Below are positions 47 through 45,246 of a stretch of DNA of 45,324 nucleotides, one piece after another (within the stretch, counting starts at the first letter, position 1; every line of letters starts with the position of its first letter). This stretch comes from a virus: the IMG/VR virus record IMGVR_UViG_3300034682_000013, positions 1 through 45,324 of that record. The stretch is one strand, 5' to 3'. The notes below the pieces were generated by a model, which worked only from the letters and a program-made list of their open reading frames with translations, searched no databases and was not told the origin of the DNA. Made by a program: the position numbers and the translations under genes.

Positions 47-120
47 GGCGCGTTAGCAAAGCGGTTATGCAGCGGATTGCAAATCCGTTTAGTCCGGTTC
101 GACTCCGGAACGTGCCTCCA
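47..120 (+). tRNA. tRNA-Cys (GCA), intact copy at attL
   Basis: A cloverleaf can be drawn by eye. The 7-bp acceptor stem pairs 47-53 with 110-116, with one G-U wobble (50:113). The anticodon stem 72-76/84-88 encloses a loop with anticodon GCA at 79-81. The T stem is 93-97/105-109 with loop TTCGACT. The discriminator is T117 and CCA (118-120) is encoded. The 5' half is host DNA. The 3' half from about 74 is shared with the phage attachment site, so integration regenerates a complete tRNA. Confidence 0.95.
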
Positions 121-121
121 T
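74..121 (+). repeat. attL, 48-bp core repeat within tRNA-Cys
   Basis: This 48-bp stretch is identical to 45199-45246. It runs from the anticodon stem through the T arm, the CCA end and one further T. Identity stops at position 73 on the left (C here, G at attR) and at 122 on the right (C here, A at attR). The crossover lies somewhere inside; the anticodon-loop region is the usual site for tRNA-targeting tyrosine integrases. Confidence 0.93.
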
Positions 122-136
122 CTTCTTCGTAAGATG

Positions 137-170
137 AAAGCCTGTCCCCGCAAGGGATGGGCTTTTGTTT
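137..170 (+). terminator. Intrinsic terminator between tRNA-Cys and RNA polymerase gene
   Basis: AAAGCC (137-142) pairs with GGCTTT (160-165). The stem continues inward through two G-U pairs to GTCCC/GGGA-type pairing, about 12 bp in all, with loop CGCAA, and is followed by TTTTGTTT. It begins 16 bp beyond the att repeat, so it is phage DNA. In the prophage it would end the tRNA transcript and shield the phage RNA polymerase gene from host transcription. In the excised form it would sit between the integrase and RNA polymerase genes. Confidence 0.8.
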
Positions 171-3137: not shown

Positions 3138-3162
3138 CGAATGACAATTGGAGAATGACTTA

Positions 3163-4245
3163 ATGACTACTTCCGCTATCGAAATCACTTCTATCATCCG
3201 CTCCGCTGGCACCCAGTTCCGCGCCAACATGAACGACGACAACGTTGAAGACATGATGGACCTGATCGAGCGGGGGATTACCTTCAAGACAAAAATCCGT
3301 CTCGCTGAATTGGATGGCCGCCTCTACCTTACTGACGGTTTCCACCGTATCGAAGCGTACCGCCGCCTGGACATTCTGGAGATCCCTTCTGACCAGTGTG
3401 TGATTGTCCCTGCGTCCTCCATTGAAGAGGTGCGCGTCATGGCAATGGGGGCCAACGTCCAACACGGCAAAGGAACCACCGAGGCTGACTACTTCATCAT
3501 CATCAAGAAAATGATGGAGTTGGAAGGTGGTAAGTACATGAAGAACGCCTTCGAGCCGGACATAAAGTTAATCGCTGAGTCTATTGGCGCTGCTGTCACT
3601 GCTGTGCGTCGGGGCTACAGTGACTACAAGGGAGCAAAGGACAATCCGCATCCAAGCCTCTCCCAACAATGCAAAGAACGCCGTGACGCTGCGATTCTGG
3701 AGAGCCACAAGGAAGGCATGAGCGATAACGCAATCGCGAAGCTGTTCAAGATGACACAATCCACCGTCACCAGGATTCGTGGGGAGCTAATGCAAAATGC
3801 GGAATCCGCAAAATGCATAACCCCAGAGACCTCCACCTCCACCGTCCCGATGGCATCCACTGAAGACCGCTTCGGCACCCGCGCTTCCTCTTCCTTTGTT
3901 AATGAACAGCTCGAAGAGTTGCTTGGTCCGGACTACCTCGACATGGACGGCAACGCTGCTTTCTCCCTGAGTGAAGATGAAGCTGATGCTCCTGCCGCCC
4001 GCTTCGACGTCCTTGCCGCTACCGGCTACGGCGAATACCTCTGCCAGTACACCAAGCCTTCCCAGCCTGCCAACGAGTTTGAGCAGGTGGAGTACGACAA
4101 GGCCAACCCTGTGAAGCTCCAAGAGGAATGGATGGTGTCTTGCGACAAGATCGCTGAACTCAAAGCGATGCTGGAAGAGGAACTCAAGCACAACGCATGG
4201 TTGAAGCGCCGTGGCGTCCTGAGCGGCGTAGCTTTGCCTGAATAA
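3163..4245 (+). CDS. ParB/sulfiredoxin-fold DNA-binding protein
   Basis: The product is 360 aa. Residues about 20-100 look like the ParB N-terminal (ParB/Srx) domain, with LTDGFHRIEAYRRL matching the DGxHR-type motif. A helix-turn-helix follows at about 185-210 (DNAIAKLFKMTQSTVTRIR). The C-terminal 130 residues are low-complexity and acidic and end in a charged helix. ATG 3163 was chosen because GGAGA lies 8 nt upstream; a TTG 15 nt earlier would overlap that ribosome site. Standard T7-like phages lack such a gene between gene 1 and gene 2.5. No ParA partner is present, so plasmid-style partition is unlikely. A transcriptional role or a ParB-like nuclease/CTPase activity is possible. Confidence 0.7.
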   Translation: MTTSAIEITSIIRSAGTQFRANMNDDNVEDMMDLIERGITFKTKIRLAELDGRLYLTDGFHRIEAYRRLDILEIPSDQCVIVPASSIEEVRVMAMGANVQHGKGTTEADYFIIIKKMMELEGGKYMKNAFEPDIKLIAESIGAAVTAVRRGYSDYKGAKDNPHPSLSQQCKERRDAAILESHKEGMSDNAIAKLFKMTQSTVTRIRGELMQNAESAKCITPETSTSTVPMASTEDRFGTRASSSFVNEQLEELLGPDYLDMDGNAAFSLSEDEADAPAARFDVLAATGYGEYLCQYTKPSQPANEFEQVEYDKANPVKLQEEWMVSCDKIAELKAMLEEELKHNAWLKRRGVLSGVALPE

Positions 4246-4312: not shown

Positions 4313-4402
4313 ATGACCAATAAAGAGTCCCTTCCTACTTTGGAAGAGCTGAAAGCCCGTGAGAAGCGCATCCGTGAAGCGATGGGGGTGTACGGTGACT
4401 AA
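4313..4402 (+). CDS. Small 29-aa charged protein
   Basis: The ORF starts at ATG 4313 with AGAGGAA upstream at ideal spacing and encodes a helical, charged 29-residue peptide (MTNKESLPTLEELK... ending VYGD). Its stop overlaps the GTG start of the next gene, suggesting translational coupling. No family is recognised. T7 has a similarly tiny gene (1.1) after its polymerase, but I see no sequence similarity. Confidence 0.6.
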   Translation: MTNKESLPTLEELKAREKRIREAMGVYGD

Positions 4403-4679
4403 CATCTGCGTCGTGTACGGCGTACCTTACGGTCGCGTCATGGAGCGTGATTGCACGTTCGGACGCGCAATGTTCTTAGTTGAGCAGGGCCACCAAGCGC
4501 GTCGCCCTTCTGTGCGTGGAGTGAATGTCTTCCCCAAGCGTCCACACGTAATGCTGCATCCCCCTTTTGAGGACTACCCAGAAGAAGAAAAAGGCTTCTT
4601 CACGGCCAGCGGCGATAAGTGGCTGCCAACCGCAAAAGACATGTCCGCATCTGATTGGGAGATCCTGACCAATGACTAA
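4395..4679 (+). CDS. Tad2-like (DUF2829) probable anti-Thoeris protein
   Basis: The product is 94 aa from GTG 4395, which overlaps the previous stop. It carries the pattern of DUF2829/Tad2 proteins: an N-terminal FGRAMFLVEQGHQARRP stretch (a helix followed by an xRR strand) and the C-terminal signature WLPTAKDMSASDWEIL, close to the family's WxPSxxDxxAxDW. Characterised Tad2 proteins bind the cyclic-ADP-ribose-type signal made by Thoeris ThsB and so block that NADase defence. The assignment is by motif only. Its place in a cluster of small genes right after the polymerase suits early counter-defence. The next gene starts 8 nt before this one ends. Confidence 0.68.
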   Translation: MTNICVVYGVPYGRVMERDCTFGRAMFLVEQGHQARRPSVRGVNVFPKRPHVMLHPPFEDYPEEEKGFFTASGDKWLPTAKDMSASDWEILTND

Positions 4680-5020: not shown

Positions 5021-5075
5021 CCCGCCAAGCCTCTCCGGTTCGCCGTGAAGCTCAAATTGGCGGGTTTTCTTTTTT
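5021..5075 (+). terminator. Strong intrinsic terminator before ssDNA-binding protein gene
   Basis: CCCGCCAA (5021-5028) is exactly complementary to TTGGCGGG (5057-5064), with a 28-nt intervening loop that may fold further, followed by TTTTCTTTTTT. It closes the RNA polymerase and small-gene block and may be the counterpart of the T7 early terminator. Confidence 0.85.
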
Positions 5076-13006: not shown

Positions 13007-13020
13007 ACCCACTTGTGAGA
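13007..13020 (+). promoter_or_regulatory. Operator-like inverted repeat O4
   Basis: ACCCAC-TT-GTGAGA is a near-perfect copy of TCYCAC-NN-GTGRGA with a complete right half. It ends 6 bp before ATG 13027, so a bound protein or an RNA hairpin could also hinder ribosome entry. Confidence 0.5.
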
Positions 13021-33274: not shown

Positions 33275-36200
33275 ATGAGCTATTACTCCATTGTCAAACT
33301 TCGGGGAGCTACTGGACAGTCCTTGTTCGCCTTCGATTTCCCCTATCTGAAGCGCGAGGACGTCCGTGTGTTTGTGGACGGGACTGCGGTCTCGTTCACC
33401 TTCACTTCCCCAAACACTATTGAGCTGGTAAACCCCCTGACCAAAGCGAGCGACGTGGTTATCCGCCGTTTCACCGAGACAGGCCGCCGACTCGTTGACT
33501 ACAACTCTGTCGCTGAGTTGACCGAAGAAGTCCTCGACACGGACTCCCTCCAGGCGTTCTACATCGTGCAGGAAGCCTTGGATACCGCTGCGTCTGCCGT
33601 TGTGGCTGACATTCAGGGTAACTGGGACGCCAAGCGTGGCCGCATCATCAACGTGGCCGACCCTGTAGACGACACCGATGCAATGAACCGTCGGACGTTC
33701 TTCGAGCTTAACGGTGCGTACACCTCCAAGATGGAAGAATGGCTACGTCAGGCCCGTGTAGCAGTGAATGACGCTGTGGAAGAGGCCAACCGTGCCCGTG
33801 ACGAAGCGAACCGTGCGGCTGACATTCAAGAGCTGACCCAGGCTATCCATGATGGCACCGCTGAGATCAAGGTTGAAGCCGAGAAGCTGCTTACCCTGAC
33901 CGTAGGAGAGAGGATCAAAGCGGAAGCCGCTGTGGTCGCCTCCAAGGGATGGGCCGACAAGTCTGCCTATTGGTACGACGTGTTCCGTAGCATCTACCTG
34001 GGGCTTCGCTCCGAGCACCCTGGCGGTGAGGTGGTCAACGGTGCGGTCTACTTCAACACCACGGACAACCGGCTGTACTTCTACACCGGCACCCAATGGT
34101 ACTCCCCGACCACTGATGCTGACCGTGCGGAAGCCGCTCGTCGCTTCGTGGAGTCCATGCGTAACGAAGTGAGCAACATGCGGGACCAGACGCGAGTCTA
34201 TTCCCAGCAGGCCCAGGACTTCGTGACAGACGCACGGGACGCTGCGAATGCTGCTGGTATGTCAGCTGGCACGGCCCGTAACGAGGCTGCTGCTGCGTCC
34301 AACCATGCGCAAGCCGCCGAGATCTCCGCTGGTGTAGCGAACGAACGCGCCTCTGCTGCTGACGGCTCTGCCAAGCGGGCCGACGCTGCTGCTGGTCGTG
34401 CGGAAGCTGCTGCTGCTCAAGTAGGGGAGACCTTCGGTGATCGTGGTGGCTGGTACGTGGCCCACGGTATGCCGACCAAGCCAATGCGGTCCGCCCTGTG
34501 GACTGTCATGGACGGTGGCGAGCTGAACGGCGTGGAGTGGAACGCTGGCGACATGCTGGTGTACTCCATCAAGACCAACTCGTTTGGCCGGATAACTGGT
34601 ACAAGCATCACTCCATCTGAGCCTACTCCTATCGAGGCTGAGGAAGGTCTGATCCTTGGTGACGGTAAGTTCATCCGTGCGAGGGTCGCTGCGAACATCC
34701 GGTGGATTGCCCACGCGAACAGCGAAGGGGTGAAGCTGGGTGACAACGCTGTGGAGCTGCACCTCTTGGGCAACAACATGGTGTTCGGTGCGCTGAAGCA
34801 TCCGGTGTTCCACAAGGGTAATCTGCCTACCTGGGACGACGTTACCGGCAAGCCTTCGAGTTTTCCCGTGGTAGCACACTCTCACAAGTGGGATGAAATC
34901 ACAGGGAAGCCTGCGGCTGCTCTGCGGTGGCCTACTTGGTTCGAGGTGACTGACAAGCCGACCTACTTCCCTCCGGTGACTCACGGCCATTCATGGAACG
35001 AGATCACCAACAAGCCGGACACTGCACTGCGGTGGCCGACCATTGCTGAAGTTGGGGCTGCACCTGAAGGTCACGGCCTTGGGACCTACGGTACGACCTT
35101 CCGTGACGCTAACTCTTTCGGTATGGCAAGCGGCTTCTATGCTGCTGGAGGTGACGGCTCTACTAACTTCTACGACAACTTCGCTCCGCTTATCCAGTCG
35201 GTACGGTCTGGTGGTGCGGACGGTACTGGCTTCCTGGGACAGATCCAGCTAGTCAACGGGAAACTGGTTGTTCGCACAAGGGCTTCCAATGTCTGGACGC
35301 CGTGGAACGTCCTGTACGGTTCGGCAAACAAGCCTACCGCTGCTGACGTAGGGGCGCGACCGGCTGACTGGGTGCCTGCATGGGGCGACATTACTGGCAA
35401 ACCTACAGACTACCCATCGGCTGAACACAGCCACACCTGGGCGTCGATCACAGGTAAGCCATCCACGTTCCCGCCTGCGACTCACAGCCACGCCTGGGCC
35501 GACATTACCGGTAAGCCATCGACGTTCGCACCTGCGACGCACAAACACGCCTGGGGTGATCTGACCGGTATCCCTGCACAAGCATCCCGCTGGCCTACGT
35601 TCGCAGAAGTGACAGGGAAACCTGAGACCTACCCTGCGGAAACTCATAGTCATGCGTGGGCTGACATTACAGGGAAGCCTGCGACGTTTGCCCCTGCTGC
35701 ACACGGTCACGCTTGGACAGACATTACTGGCAAACCTGCGACGTTTGCCCCTGCTGCACACGGTCACGCTTGGTCTGAGCTGACTGGAGTCCCTGAGTTC
35801 GCCACTCGCTGGCCCACTGCGGCTGAAGTAGGGGCTGCGGCTCTGAACCACGGCCACGCCCGCCAGTTCGGCTCCGAGCAAACCCTGAGCACAGAGGACC
35901 TGGACACCATCAAGACCCCTGGTGTCTACGCCCAACACGCCAATGCGAACACCTCCGCTGCCCGTCATTACCCAGAGAATCTTGCAGGTTCCCTGATCGT
36001 TACTGTCGGTGCGGGAGTCCAGCAGCGTTATCACGTCTACAACACCAGTCGTGTGTGGACCCGCGCCCAATACAGCACTGGTGCATGGACGCCGTGGGCG
36101 CGTGATTACAACACCTTGAACAAGCCGACTGCTGCTGACGTTGGTGGAAGTGACGCGAACATTCTCTACAAAAACAGCACCGGCACAACCTCCCTTTCTA

Positions 36201-40495: not shown

Positions 40496-40554
40496 TCCCA
40501 TTTGTGAGACAATCTCAAAAAGTGTTTGACAGTCAGTCTCACATGTGGGACTAT
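40496..40554 (+). promoter_or_regulatory. Early host-type promoter PE1 with two operators
   Basis: A consensus -35 TTGACA (40526-40531) is followed after 17 bp by a weak -10, GACTAT (40549-40554). The operator TCTCAC-AT-GTGGGA (40537-40550) fills the spacer as a 16-bp near-palindrome with its flanks. A second copy, TCCCAT-TT-GTGAGA, lies upstream at 40496-40509. A repressor bound at either site would block sigma70 RNA polymerase. A boxA element follows at 40588. Confidence 0.75.
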
Positions 40555-40587: not shown

Positions 40588-40605
40588 TGCTCTTTAACAA
40601 TCTGG
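40588..40605 (+). promoter_or_regulatory. rRNA-type boxA antitermination element 1
   Basis: TGCTCTTTAACAATCTGG is nearly identical to the boxA of bacterial rRNA leaders (TGCTCTTTAACAA), the RNA site for NusB/NusE (S10). It lies about 30 nt downstream of the predicted PE1 start. The same 18 bases recur after PE2. Confidence 0.85.
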
Positions 40606-40735
40606 CTCACACGGTACAACTCACCGATTCACTTACCGAGTTACCTATGATGGTTGCTGGGCAGGGTAGCTGGCTTACAGTCCTGTCGTTCAAATGGCCT
40701 ATGGAACTCACAAACGAGACCGAATCAAAAACGAG

Positions 40736-40764
40736 TTGACAACCACAAGTGAGCCGATTAAGAT
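40736..40764 (+). promoter_or_regulatory. Early host-type promoter PE2 with operator
   Basis: TTGACA (40736-40741), a 17-bp spacer and TAAGAT (40759-40764) make a near-consensus sigma70 promoter. The operator-like AACCAC-AA-GTGAGC occupies 40741-40754 between the two boxes. A second boxA follows at 40815. Two tandem promoters recall T7 A1-A3. Confidence 0.85.
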
Positions 40765-40814
40765 GGGCACCATGAAACGGCGACATGCCAAGACGAGACG
40801 AGAGTCAAGTCACC

Positions 40815-40832
40815 TGCTCTTTAACAATCTGG
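40815..40832 (+). promoter_or_regulatory. rRNA-type boxA antitermination element 2
   Basis: An exact second copy of TGCTCTTTAACAATCTGG, about 45 nt downstream of the predicted PE2 start. Duplication of promoter plus boxA suggests selection for a processive early transcript. Confidence 0.85.
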
Positions 40833-40858
40833 GAAATGACTAGCGATTAGCTTAATCA

Positions 40859-40891
40859 GATGGTCTCACTTGTTAGCCTAGTGGGGCCATC
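40859..40891 (+). promoter_or_regulatory. Leader hairpin H1 (long loop) before first early gene
   Basis: GATGGTCTCAC (40859-40869) and GTGGGGCCATC (40881-40891) form an 11-bp RNA stem with two G-U pairs, enclosing an 11-nt loop. The same arms with a 2-nt AA centre occur at 41258 and 41916. Here the DNA operator is split but the RNA stem is kept. Confidence 0.65.
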
Positions 40892-40922
40892 GACTGAAGT
40901 TAATCAACTAGGAGGAAACGAC

Positions 40923-41243: not shown

Positions 41244-41257
41244 GAGTAGTCTGGCCG

Positions 41258-41281
41258 GATGGTCTCACAAGTGGGGCCATC
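41258..41281 (+). promoter_or_regulatory. Leader hairpin / operator H2 before ardA-like gene
   Basis: GATGGTCTCAC-AA-GTGGGGCCATC is a 24-bp inverted repeat containing the operator core TCTCAC-AA-GTGGGG. It lies 42 bp before the ardA-like start. It could act as a DNA operator or as an RNA hairpin. Confidence 0.65.
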
Positions 41282-41323
41282 TAACGAGAATGCACCTATC
41301 AACTCAACCGAGGAGAAAACACC

Positions 41324-41899
41324 ATGAGAACTATCGCTGAAATCCGTGCTGCCATCGAAGCTGCTGCTAACCACACCACTGATGAATCAATCTGTGTCCG
41401 CTGGTGTGCTCTGGGTAACGGATGGTGGGTCTGGATCAACGCTGAAGACGTGGCAGACGCTGGGAGCCTGAGCGAATGGCTGGAGCAATACGCTGGGCTG
41501 GAAGAGGACGAGCTGGAGTTCATCAACAACCAAGACTGGGAAGTGGTGGACGACGACGGCGGGCTGGTCGGGGAGTTCTGCGACTACTCCAACGGCTGGG
41601 GCTACTTCAACTGCGACGAATACATCACGGCGCTGGAGGCACTGGAAGAAAGCGGGATGGAGCTGGAAGCGTTCAAAGCGGGCCTGTCTCTGGGTATCCC
41701 TGCTGACAAGGTGTGGGACGCATACCGTGGGGACTTCGACAGCGACGAGGACTTCGCAGAGGACCTCTGGGAAAACTGCGGATACCTAAGCGAGATGCCG
41801 GAGTTCGCCCGCAACTACATCGACTGGCAGGCCGTGGCGCGTGACCTGATGTTCGACTTCCAAGAAGAGGACGGCCACTACTTCGACCGCAACTGGTAA
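41324..41899 (+). CDS. ArdA-like antirestriction protein (DNA mimic)
   Basis: The product is 191 aa, strongly acidic. The C-terminal ~90 residues match ArdA: DFAEDLWENCGYLSEMPEF followed by NYIDWQAVARDLMFD, against the family pattern ...EETGxLxxxPxxLxxYIDYxAxGRDxxL. The N-terminal ~100 residues are less conserved. ArdA dimers mimic bent B-DNA and block type I restriction enzymes. Being in the early operon it would protect incoming DNA. GAGGAG precedes the ATG. Confidence 0.78.
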   Translation: MRTIAEIRAAIEAAANHTTDESICVRWCALGNGWWVWINAEDVADAGSLSEWLEQYAGLEEDELEFINNQDWEVVDDDGGLVGEFCDYSNGWGYFNCDEYITALEALEESGMELEAFKAGLSLGIPADKVWDAYRGDFDSDEDFAEDLWENCGYLSEMPEFARNYIDWQAVARDLMFDFQEEDGHYFDRNW

Positions 41900-41915: not shown

Positions 41916-41939
41916 GATGGTCTCACAAGTGGGGCCATC
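41916..41939 (+). promoter_or_regulatory. Leader hairpin / operator H3
   Basis: A second exact copy of the 24-bp inverted repeat GATGGTCTCAC-AA-GTGGGGCCATC, 36 bp before ATG 41976. Identity with H2 over the whole repeat while flanks differ indicates function rather than recent duplication of a larger block. Confidence 0.65.
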
Positions 41940-43548: not shown

Positions 43549-43821
43549 ATGGCTCTAATCGACGCAACCCAGTTAGTGGAATCTCTTGTTCTTCCAGCGG
43601 TGGATGTTAGAGACATCCTCAACTATGAAGCCTTACCGAACGTGGTGGTGTGGGTACTTGAGGAAGTGGGTTCCAAGGAAGAAGCCAGCGAAATAATACG
43701 GTCAGGAATTGAAGTCGTTATCCTGGCCTTCGGAATGAAGTTCATCGGACTAAGGAGGCACCCAAATGGCCGCAACAACCGAACTACTCAAAATCTCTCG
43801 GATTATGTCGCTCCTGCGTGA
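43549..43821 (+). CDS. Lysogeny-module 90-aa protein, unknown
   Basis: ATG 43549 follows AAGGA behind the lysogeny promoter. The first 65 residues are helical and mixed-charge (VESLVLPAVDVRDILNYEAL, EVGSKEEASEIIRSGIEVV); the tail is basic and polar. No DNA-binding motif is obvious. It overlaps the MarR-like gene by 56 bp. It could be a co-regulator or anti-repressor; no family is recognised. Confidence 0.6.
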   Translation: MALIDATQLVESLVLPAVDVRDILNYEALPNVVVWVLEEVGSKEEASEIIRSGIEVVILAFGMKFIGLRRHPNGRNNRTTQNLSDYVAPA

Positions 43822-44098
43822 CGTTCACGTAGATTTCCCAGCGACAGCGATCCACTGCCTACTGACCGTTATGGCTGAGGAAGGGATCACACAAATGGAG
43901 GTGGCACAGCGCATCAACATGCCGAAAAGTACGTGCAGCCGGAACATGCGTCTGCTGTCTCCACGTCTAGGCCCTGAGAAGGAAGGCATGGGCCTTATAG
44001 AGCTTCGCGTAGACCCGATGGACTACCGCCACAAGGGAGCCTACCTGACACCCAAGGGCGTGGAGCTGCGCGATAAAATCAAGGAGCTAATGCAATGA
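43766..44098 (+). CDS. MarR-like winged-helix regulator, candidate prophage repressor
   Basis: The product is 110 aa with a strong AAGGAGG site. The winged-helix core has helix-turn-helix TQMEVAQRINMPKSTCSRNM, a wing ending LIELRVDPMDYRHKG, and a final helix YLTPKGVELRDKIKELM, as in MarR proteins, which bind short palindromes as dimers. It stands between the lysogeny promoter and integrase, and no lambda-type repressor is present, so it is the best candidate to bind TCYCAC-NN-GTGRGA. It has no peptidase domain for SOS cleavage. The stop overlaps the integrase start. Confidence 0.75.
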   Translation: MAATTELLKISRIMSLLRDVHVDFPATAIHCLLTVMAEEGITQMEVAQRINMPKSTCSRNMRLLSPRLGPEKEGMGLIELRVDPMDYRHKGAYLTPKGVELRDKIKELMQ

Positions 44099-45093
44099 TA
44101 CGACAGCGAGGAAATAGCTGGCAGGTAGACGTCGAGGTAGGAGGGAAGCGAATACGCCGCTCCGTTCCTACCGAAGAGGCGGCGGTAGAGCTAGAGGCCC
44201 GCTTGCTGAACCAAGGGACGGACGCCGAGGTGACGATGGTGGAGTTGGTCAGGAGGACATGGAACAGGGATTGGAGGCACTGCAAGGACGGGCGGGGCTT
44301 GGTCAGAAGGGCGGAAATCGTCTTGACTGACATGGGATGGGCTAACAAGTCAGTCCACCTACTCCAAGCGAGGGACTTGGAAATGATGATGGACCATTAT
44401 CGAGCCAAGGGGAACACCGACGCGACAATCAACAGGAAGCTGGCGAGTATCACAAAGCTCCTATCAACAGCCATCGAGCAGGGGATCATCAAGACAAAGC
44501 CTGCTGTGAAGCAAGTGAGGGAGCGCAATGGTCGGGTCAGGTTCTTGTCACAGGAAGAGGAACAGACGCTCCTACAGCTTGCACAAGAGCACGAATACAT
44601 AGGGACGTACCACCTGATCATCTTCCTACTGGATACCGGCTGTCGTGTGGGTGAAGCCCTCAAGCTGAAACCTTGCGACGTCAACAAGCAATTCAAGTCG
44701 GTGGTCTTTGCGGACACCAAGAACGGGACCAACAGGACCATCCCGTTGACGGACAGGGCGCTTGCCTCTGCATTCGGATGGAAGCACCTGACACAACCTA
44801 AGTTCAACCACCAATGGAACCGTCTGAGGTCAGCAATGGGGCTGTCTCAAGACATGCACATGGTCCCGCACATACTCCGCCACACATGCGCCTCAAGGCT
44901 CGTACAGAACGGCGTAGACCTGCGAGTAGTGAAGGACTGGATGGGCCATAAGTCCATCGCAATGACAATGCGCTATGCTCACCTTCGATTAGAAGACCTA
45001 ATGCAAGCGCGGGACGTTTTGGAAGGAATCCAACGTGCCAAACCGTGTGACACACGTGACGTCACACATGAAGAAGATGCCAAAAAGGCTTGA
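44095..45093 (+). CDS. int: Tyrosine-type site-specific integrase
   Basis: The product is 332 aa. An N-terminal arm-binding-like domain (RGNSWQVDVEVGGKRIRRSV) and SAM-like core-binding domain precede the catalytic domain. Catalytic residues are R184 (TGCRVGEAL), K209, H259-x-x-R262 (HILRHTCASR), H285 (WMGHKS) and the nucleophile Y294 (MRYAHL). It overlaps the regulator gene (ATGA). It lies 105 bp from attR, and its 3' end contains repeats that may be its own arm sites. It would integrate and, perhaps with an excisionase not yet identified, excise the phage at tRNA-Cys. Confidence 0.95.
   Translation: MIRQRGNSWQVDVEVGGKRIRRSVPTEEAAVELEARLLNQGTDAEVTMVELVRRTWNRDWRHCKDGRGLVRRAEIVLTDMGWANKSVHLLQARDLEMMMDHYRAKGNTDATINRKLASITKLLSTAIEQGIIKTKPAVKQVRERNGRVRFLSQEEEQTLLQLAQEHEYIGTYHLIIFLLDTGCRVGEALKLKPCDVNKQFKSVVFADTKNGTNRTIPLTDRALASAFGWKHLTQPKFNHQWNRLRSAMGLSQDMHMVPHILRHTCASRLVQNGVDLRVVKDWMGHKSIAMTMRYAHLRLEDLMQARDVLEGIQRAKPCDTRDVTHEEDAKKA
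45046..45066. promoter_or_regulatory. Possible integrase arm-type sites, right arm
   Basis: TGTGACA (45046-45052) and the inverse complement of TGTGACG (45060-45066) lie in the last codons of int, as part of the longer inverted repeat GTGTGAC/GTCACAC (45045-45067). The same heptamer is duplicated on the other side of the att core at 214-232. Confidence 0.4.
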
Positions 45094-45198
45094 CCATCAA
45101 GCACCTGCTCCGTATAGTGCGGACCCAACGGCGCGAGGCCCAAAGCGGCTTCCAGCGGATTAGGCGAATGAAATGAGCCTACCCGAGCCTCTGGCGAG
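45094..45198. other. Short noncoding phage arm between int and attR
   Basis: These are 105 bp without a gene. A 5-bp hairpin GCTTG/CAAGC overlaps the int stop but has no T-run, so I see no terminator. In the viral genome this arm would join through the 48-bp att core to the terminator and the RNA polymerase gene. Confidence 0.6.
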
Positions 45199-45246
45199 GG
45201 ATTGCAAATCCGTTTAGTCCGGTTCGACTCCGGAACGTGCCTCCAT
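45199..45246 (+). repeat. attR, 48-bp core repeat (3' half of tRNA-Cys)
   Basis: Identical to 74-121. No tRNA 5' half precedes it, so it is a remnant and only the attL copy is a working tRNA. Host sequence resumes at 45247; the last 78 bp are too short to assign. Confidence 0.93.

Follow-up and report, generated by a model that had tools for sequence, protein, structure and literature searches.

An rRNA-type boxA pair in the early leader of a temperate T7-like prophage

Why would a temperate relative of T7 carry, behind each of its two inferred early promoters, a copy of an 18-nt element of the kind found in rRNA operons? The window, i.e. the whole 45,324-base IMG/VR virus record analysed here, is a temperate T7-like prophage as judged from its tRNA-Cys att sites, MarR-like gene, integrase, single-subunit RNA polymerase, and T7-type terminase (Table 1). 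Its early operon is ordered P1-boxA1-P2-boxA2-early genes-MarR-int and leads, in the excised genome, into attP, a hairpin terminator, and the polymerase gene, with ~300 nt separating int from the polymerase gene. The initial annotation had placed a terminator in this spacer, and a hairpin with a U-run is indeed found there, on the phage side of the att core and just outside its 48 bp (-23.6 kcal/mol, z -3.75). A promoter-like site (45090-45118, 10/12) lies 3' of int and is directed, in the excised genome, through attP toward the polymerase gene. Relatives of the phage polymerase were found neither in the genome contigs nor in 75 Aeromonas-family genomes or 369 genomes of its class.

Table 1. 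Positions of the early-region elements, att sites, and genes in the window.
Feature	Position	Strand	Remarks
boxA1, TGCTCTTTAACAATCTGG	40588..40605	+	exact match; conserved in the related prophage
boxA2, TGCTCTTTAACAATCTGG	40815..40832	+	exact match; 17/18 in the related prophage
Early promoter P1, TTGACA-17-GACTAT, extended -10	40526..40554	+	inferred from sequence, weak -10
Early promoter P2, TTGACA-17-TAAGAT, 10/12	40736..40764	+	inferred, good sigma-70-type match
Palindrome GTCTCACATGTGGGAC	40536-40551		overlaps P1 spacer and -10; candidate repressor operator
Long imperfect RNA hairpin (12-bp upper stem, internal loop, lower stem)	40845..40907	+	downstream of boxA2
attL core, within 3' part of tRNA-Cys (47-120)	74..121	+	
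attR core	45199..45246	+	48 bp identical to 74-121
Hairpin + U-run, intrinsic-terminator-like	137..170	+	phage side of attL
T7-like single-subunit RNA polymerase, 889 aa	272..2941	+	phrog_414, E 4.7e-225
First early gene, 106 aa	40923..41243	+	no family match; missing from the related prophage
ArdA-like anti-restriction protein	41324..41899	+	PF07275; phrog_14321
MarR-like winged-helix regulator	43766..44098	+	phrog_9665
Tyrosine integrase	44095..45093	+	PF00589

A window-wide search allowing up to three mismatches returned the 18-mer at exactly two sites, both perfect, and gave no further match. With 0.03 sites expected by chance and two copies in 0 of 100 dinucleotide shuffles, the initial observation of one copy per early promoter is upheld. 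Both elements are located on the sense strand of the untranslated early leader, between the host-type early promoters and the first early gene; the phage encodes a T7-like RNA polymerase. Each comes soon after an inferred host-type promoter, 27-45 nt downstream of the inferred start, with 33 nt (boxA1) or 50 nt (boxA2) between the end of the -10 hexamer and the start of the element. Both sites are kept, with 17/17 core bases, in the related prophage IMGVR_UViG_2859386824_000001, where the first T of boxA2 is replaced by C, as in T7. The 22 nt immediately upstream of boxA2 are deleted there, yet both elements are retained; this prophage is too similar to ours for retention alone to be proof of selection. 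A boxB-like mini-hairpin upstream of boxA2 was ruled out because exactly that stretch is missing from the related prophage. A DNA similarity search of the phage collection with the leader found nothing.

The 18 bases, including the 12-nt boxA core TGCTCTTTAACA, which is exact at both sites, are all shared with bacterial rRNA spacers. The 120 exact matches in bacteria came from Enterobacterales, Aeromonas, Vibrionaceae relatives, and others; 79 of them lie within 1 kb past a 16S 3' end, and the remainder are mostly accompanied by the same downstream spacer sequence. In the rRNA leaders of these loci the sequence is TGCTCTTTAACAATTTA..., with boxC after it. This sequence comparison, made against bacterial rRNA at large, identifies the element as rRNA boxA, the site of NusB/S10, of the kind found in the 16S-23S spacer and not in the leader. 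boxC (TCTGTGTGGG), which had 0 mismatches in 43 of the 43 rRNA leader sites scored, was not found downstream of boxA1 or boxA2, the best match having four mismatches at both sites. Thus, the identification with the boxA of rRNA operons stands at 18/18 bases, while the accompanying idea that the phage copied an rRNA leader has to be given up in favor of a spacer-type element without boxC. Contacts with SuhB may be weaker at sites that lack boxC. PMC10250234 singles out boxA as the sole rRNA element both necessary and sufficient for the antitermination complex to assemble; we therefore regard boxC as an accompanying feature of leaders rather than as one that defines boxA.

The phage sites further differ from bacterial rRNA boxA in their unrelated flanks and in that protein genes, rather than rRNA, are driven. 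With the lambda nut site they have in common a boxA as NusB-S10 site in phage early transcription. A lambda-type boxB was not seen in the centroid fold of the boxA2 region, in which no stable hairpin formed within ~15 nt downstream of boxA2, and scanning of the early proteins gave no match to a lambda N-like protein (N proteins are short and diverse). As a separate observation, many other IMG/VR prophage contigs, L175, L189, L178, and L164 among them, have the same boxA immediately after a small hairpin, in the boxB-boxA order known from rRNA; those tested are without a T7-like polymerase.

As a promoter match, P1 is weaker than P2: it combines a perfect -35 and an extended TG with 3/6 bases of the -10, and the promoter scanner did not list it. 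The palindrome over P1 has an operator-like counterpart in the P2 spacer, which contains the half site CCACAAGTGAG. The shorter palindrome CYCACWWGTGRG matched 13 times at up to one mismatch (2.1 expected), at sites including 182-193, 13008-13019, 34881-34892, 40497-40508, 40538-40549, 40742-40753, 40865-40876, 41264-41275, and 41922-41933. The palindromes, which overlap P1, the spacer of P2, and the stretch ahead of the phage polymerase gene, are candidate operators for the MarR-like repressor. Two similar strong hairpins (40850-40900 and 41255-41290, GATGGTCTCAC...GTGGGGCCATC) precede the first two early genes and are candidates for RNase III sites or operators.

The element recurs in other phages. 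At least 16 nt of the 18-mer are present in 660 of 50,697 phage records. In a set of 21 T7-like phages we counted 18 sites at up to one mismatch, all on a single strand, with 0 on the opposite strand and 0 for the reversed motif. Four of the 21 had been chosen for carrying boxA; with these excluded, boxA was present in 9 of 17 phages selected irrespective of it, namely T3, BA14, Proteus PM 85, Bordetella BB8, Vibrio VP46, LUZ100, and three other Pseudomonas phages. The Klebsiella KP34, Acinetobacter, phiKMV-type, Xanthomonas, and cyanophage records in the T7-like set yielded no site. The same bias was observed among 51 T7-like IMG/VR loci in which at least 1.5 kb of sequence precedes the polymerase gene (19 sense sites at up to one mismatch versus 1 antisense and 0 reversed). 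Two copies, as in our phage, occur in Aeromonas MJG, Pseudomonas MR4, and the loci L313 and L343, and three in SP6 (one of them with one mismatch) and the locus L180. SP6-type phages (NC_004831, L180) resemble ours in having several sense-strand boxA elements in the early region, one of which precedes an ocr-like gene; they belong to a different subfamily, and their sites are nearer to the gene starts. The boxA of T7 is thus no oddity of a coliphage, being repeated on the sense strand across several T7-like subfamilies, temperate ones included.

In T7 itself, the element has a phenotype. The initial annotation had asserted that T7 works without such a system, an assertion contradicted by both sequence and genetics. 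The T7 genome (NC_001604) has 17/18 bases at 813-829, between A3 (750) and gene 0.3 (925); T7.1 and T7 both have CGCTCTTTAACAATCTGG in this interval. PMC3709561, citing Savalia et al. 2010 (J Mol Biol 402:118), describes a boxA anti-termination element downstream of the T7 early promoters, mutation of which makes Gp2 dispensable. The essential role of Gp2 is given there as preventing anti-terminated early transcription from entering regions read by T7 polymerase. The arrangement is the same in both phages: a sense-strand boxA past the host early promoters, then a hairpin, then early genes including an anti-restriction gene. T7 differs in having one boxA after A1-A3, where our phage has one after each of two promoters, and in lacking the int-attP-terminator arrangement that our phage has upstream of the polymerase gene. 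A scan of ten window proteins, most of them small, gave no hit to a Gp2-like inhibitor. With the pair described here, a device already known gains a new example.

These data bear on whether the sites might be accidental, or left behind, without function, by recombination with rRNA spacers. In favor of a remnant, all 18 bases agree with spacer sequence; the likeness nevertheless ends at the 18-mer, and chance is at odds with the expectation given above and with the strict strand bias and repeated occurrence among T7-like phages. Taken with the phenotype of the T7 boxA mutation as given in PMC3709561, this makes an accidental or inert origin extremely improbable.

We consider it probable that the 18-mers serve as rRNA-type boxA in the untranslated early leader and antiterminate host RNA polymerase over the early operon. 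This likely role, already suggested in the initial annotation, has the support of T7 genetics in a homologous setting, as described in PMC3709561. What was observed here is sequence identity, position, strand, and recurrence; protein binding and its effect in the present phage we infer. Host RNA polymerase starting at P1 or P2 would expose boxA in the nascent RNA within ~30-60 nt. NusB-S10, together with NusA, NusG, and SuhB, would then bind the boxA RNA and stay on the polymerase. The resulting complex would be processive and resistant to Rho, and partly to hairpin terminators, over the ~4.7 kb early operon with its anti-restriction genes, MarR-like regulator, and integrase, possibly onward into the phage polymerase gene. 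The rRNA complex is known to resist Rho and, when complete with SuhB, lowers intrinsic termination in vitro (PMC6614801).

The leader also contains structure that could assign boxA a different task. The large hairpin downstream of boxA2 (local fold -21 kcal/mol, z -3.51) corresponds in position to the RNase III site R0.3 that is annotated past the T7 boxA, and may likewise be cleaved by RNase III. Combined with the description of Nus factors at rRNA as mainly folding aids (PMC5725501), this would fit a boxA that mainly serves RNA folding and processing, with Nus factors holding the leader near the polymerase while the hairpin folds and is cut as in pre-rRNA. We find such a role improbable, as the hairpin is local and should fold unaided, boxA1 is without an adjacent hairpin of that kind, and the sites of SP6-type phages directly precede genes. 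Repression of translation of the first early gene, in place of an aid to transcription, has a precedent in E. coli, where NusB/E at the leader boxA represses suhB translation (PMC5725501). In suhB the distance from boxA to the ribosome site is 6 nt; here the ribosome site is ~78 nt downstream with a hairpin between, boxA1 is more than 300 nt from the first gene start, and the T7 data (PMC3709561) indicate anti-terminated transcription. A translational role is thus highly unlikely.

If antitermination by boxA is accepted, its chief target could still be a single site. The initial annotation had suggested that boxA lets early transcripts pass the terminator at attP; boxA would then chiefly serve to turn on the phage RNA polymerase, and in the lysogen transcripts reading through from tRNA-Cys would be stopped at the same hairpin. 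The terminator does separate int from the polymerase gene, being placed at att on the phage side; its hairpin is stable, and the stretch from there to the polymerase gene yielded no sigma-70-type promoter, which makes some read-through plausible. Of the relatives sharing this layout, the Pseudomonas phage LUZ100 (OP329100) is the best studied. Its gene order runs from a MarR-like gene through integrase and the equivalent terminator T4 to the phage RNA polymerase; it has one boxA instead of two, and its host and proteins have diverged (polymerase 32% identical). It carries the exact 18-mer ~42 nt past its promoter P2 as mapped in PMC10134795, a paper in which boxA is unmentioned. Its authors propose sporadic read-through of T4 by host polymerase, and report that transcripts from P3 are mostly terminated strongly at T4 (PMC10134795). 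The reduction of intrinsic termination by the complete rRNA complex would favor such a passage, as would the description, in PMC3709561, of anti-terminated early transcription that reaches into the late regions of T7. We had considered the T7 early terminator as an argument against read-through of hairpins by the boxA complex, and dropped it in view of that same description.

The distribution of boxA points the other way. Among the 51 IMG/VR loci, boxA was present in 1 of 20 that bear an integrase upstream of the polymerase gene versus 18 of 31 without one, and in 1 of 10 (p = 0.011) when integrase loci were limited to those with at least 5.4 kb upstream, a comparison confounded by hosts that probably differ between the groups. 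A relaxed boxA search in integrase-bearing loci without the exact core gave no clear sense-strand excess. As boxA is far commoner in the absence of integrase, crossing of attP cannot be its general reason. The missing boxC at both sites is a further point against this reading, and we rate passage of attP as the chief function as possible, though rather doubtful.

A broader proposal, which we regard as unlikely, makes boxA part of a lysis-lysogeny switch: antiterminated host polymerase would cross the attP terminator on infection and make the phage polymerase, and integration would then silence the latter. Integration would relocate the polymerase gene to the opposite end of the prophage, away from P1 and P2, and the terminator ahead of the relocated gene would also stop tRNA-Cys transcripts. 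If so, both geometry and the MarR-like repressor would keep the lysogen silent. For LUZ100-type phages, boxA bears on how a polymerase gene behind a terminator is first expressed, a question left by the LUZ100 authors.

Other features were noticed around the polymerase gene. The Rfam abiF RNA matched above its gathering score at 5021-5065, just 5' of a T7-like SSB gene; there is no abi gene at that place, and the structure resembles an ordinary terminator hairpin. Immediately 3' of the polymerase gene is a ParB-like/HTH protein (3148-4245), followed shortly by a Tad2-like (Thoeris anti-defence) protein (4359-4679), which together with ArdA makes two anti-defence genes.
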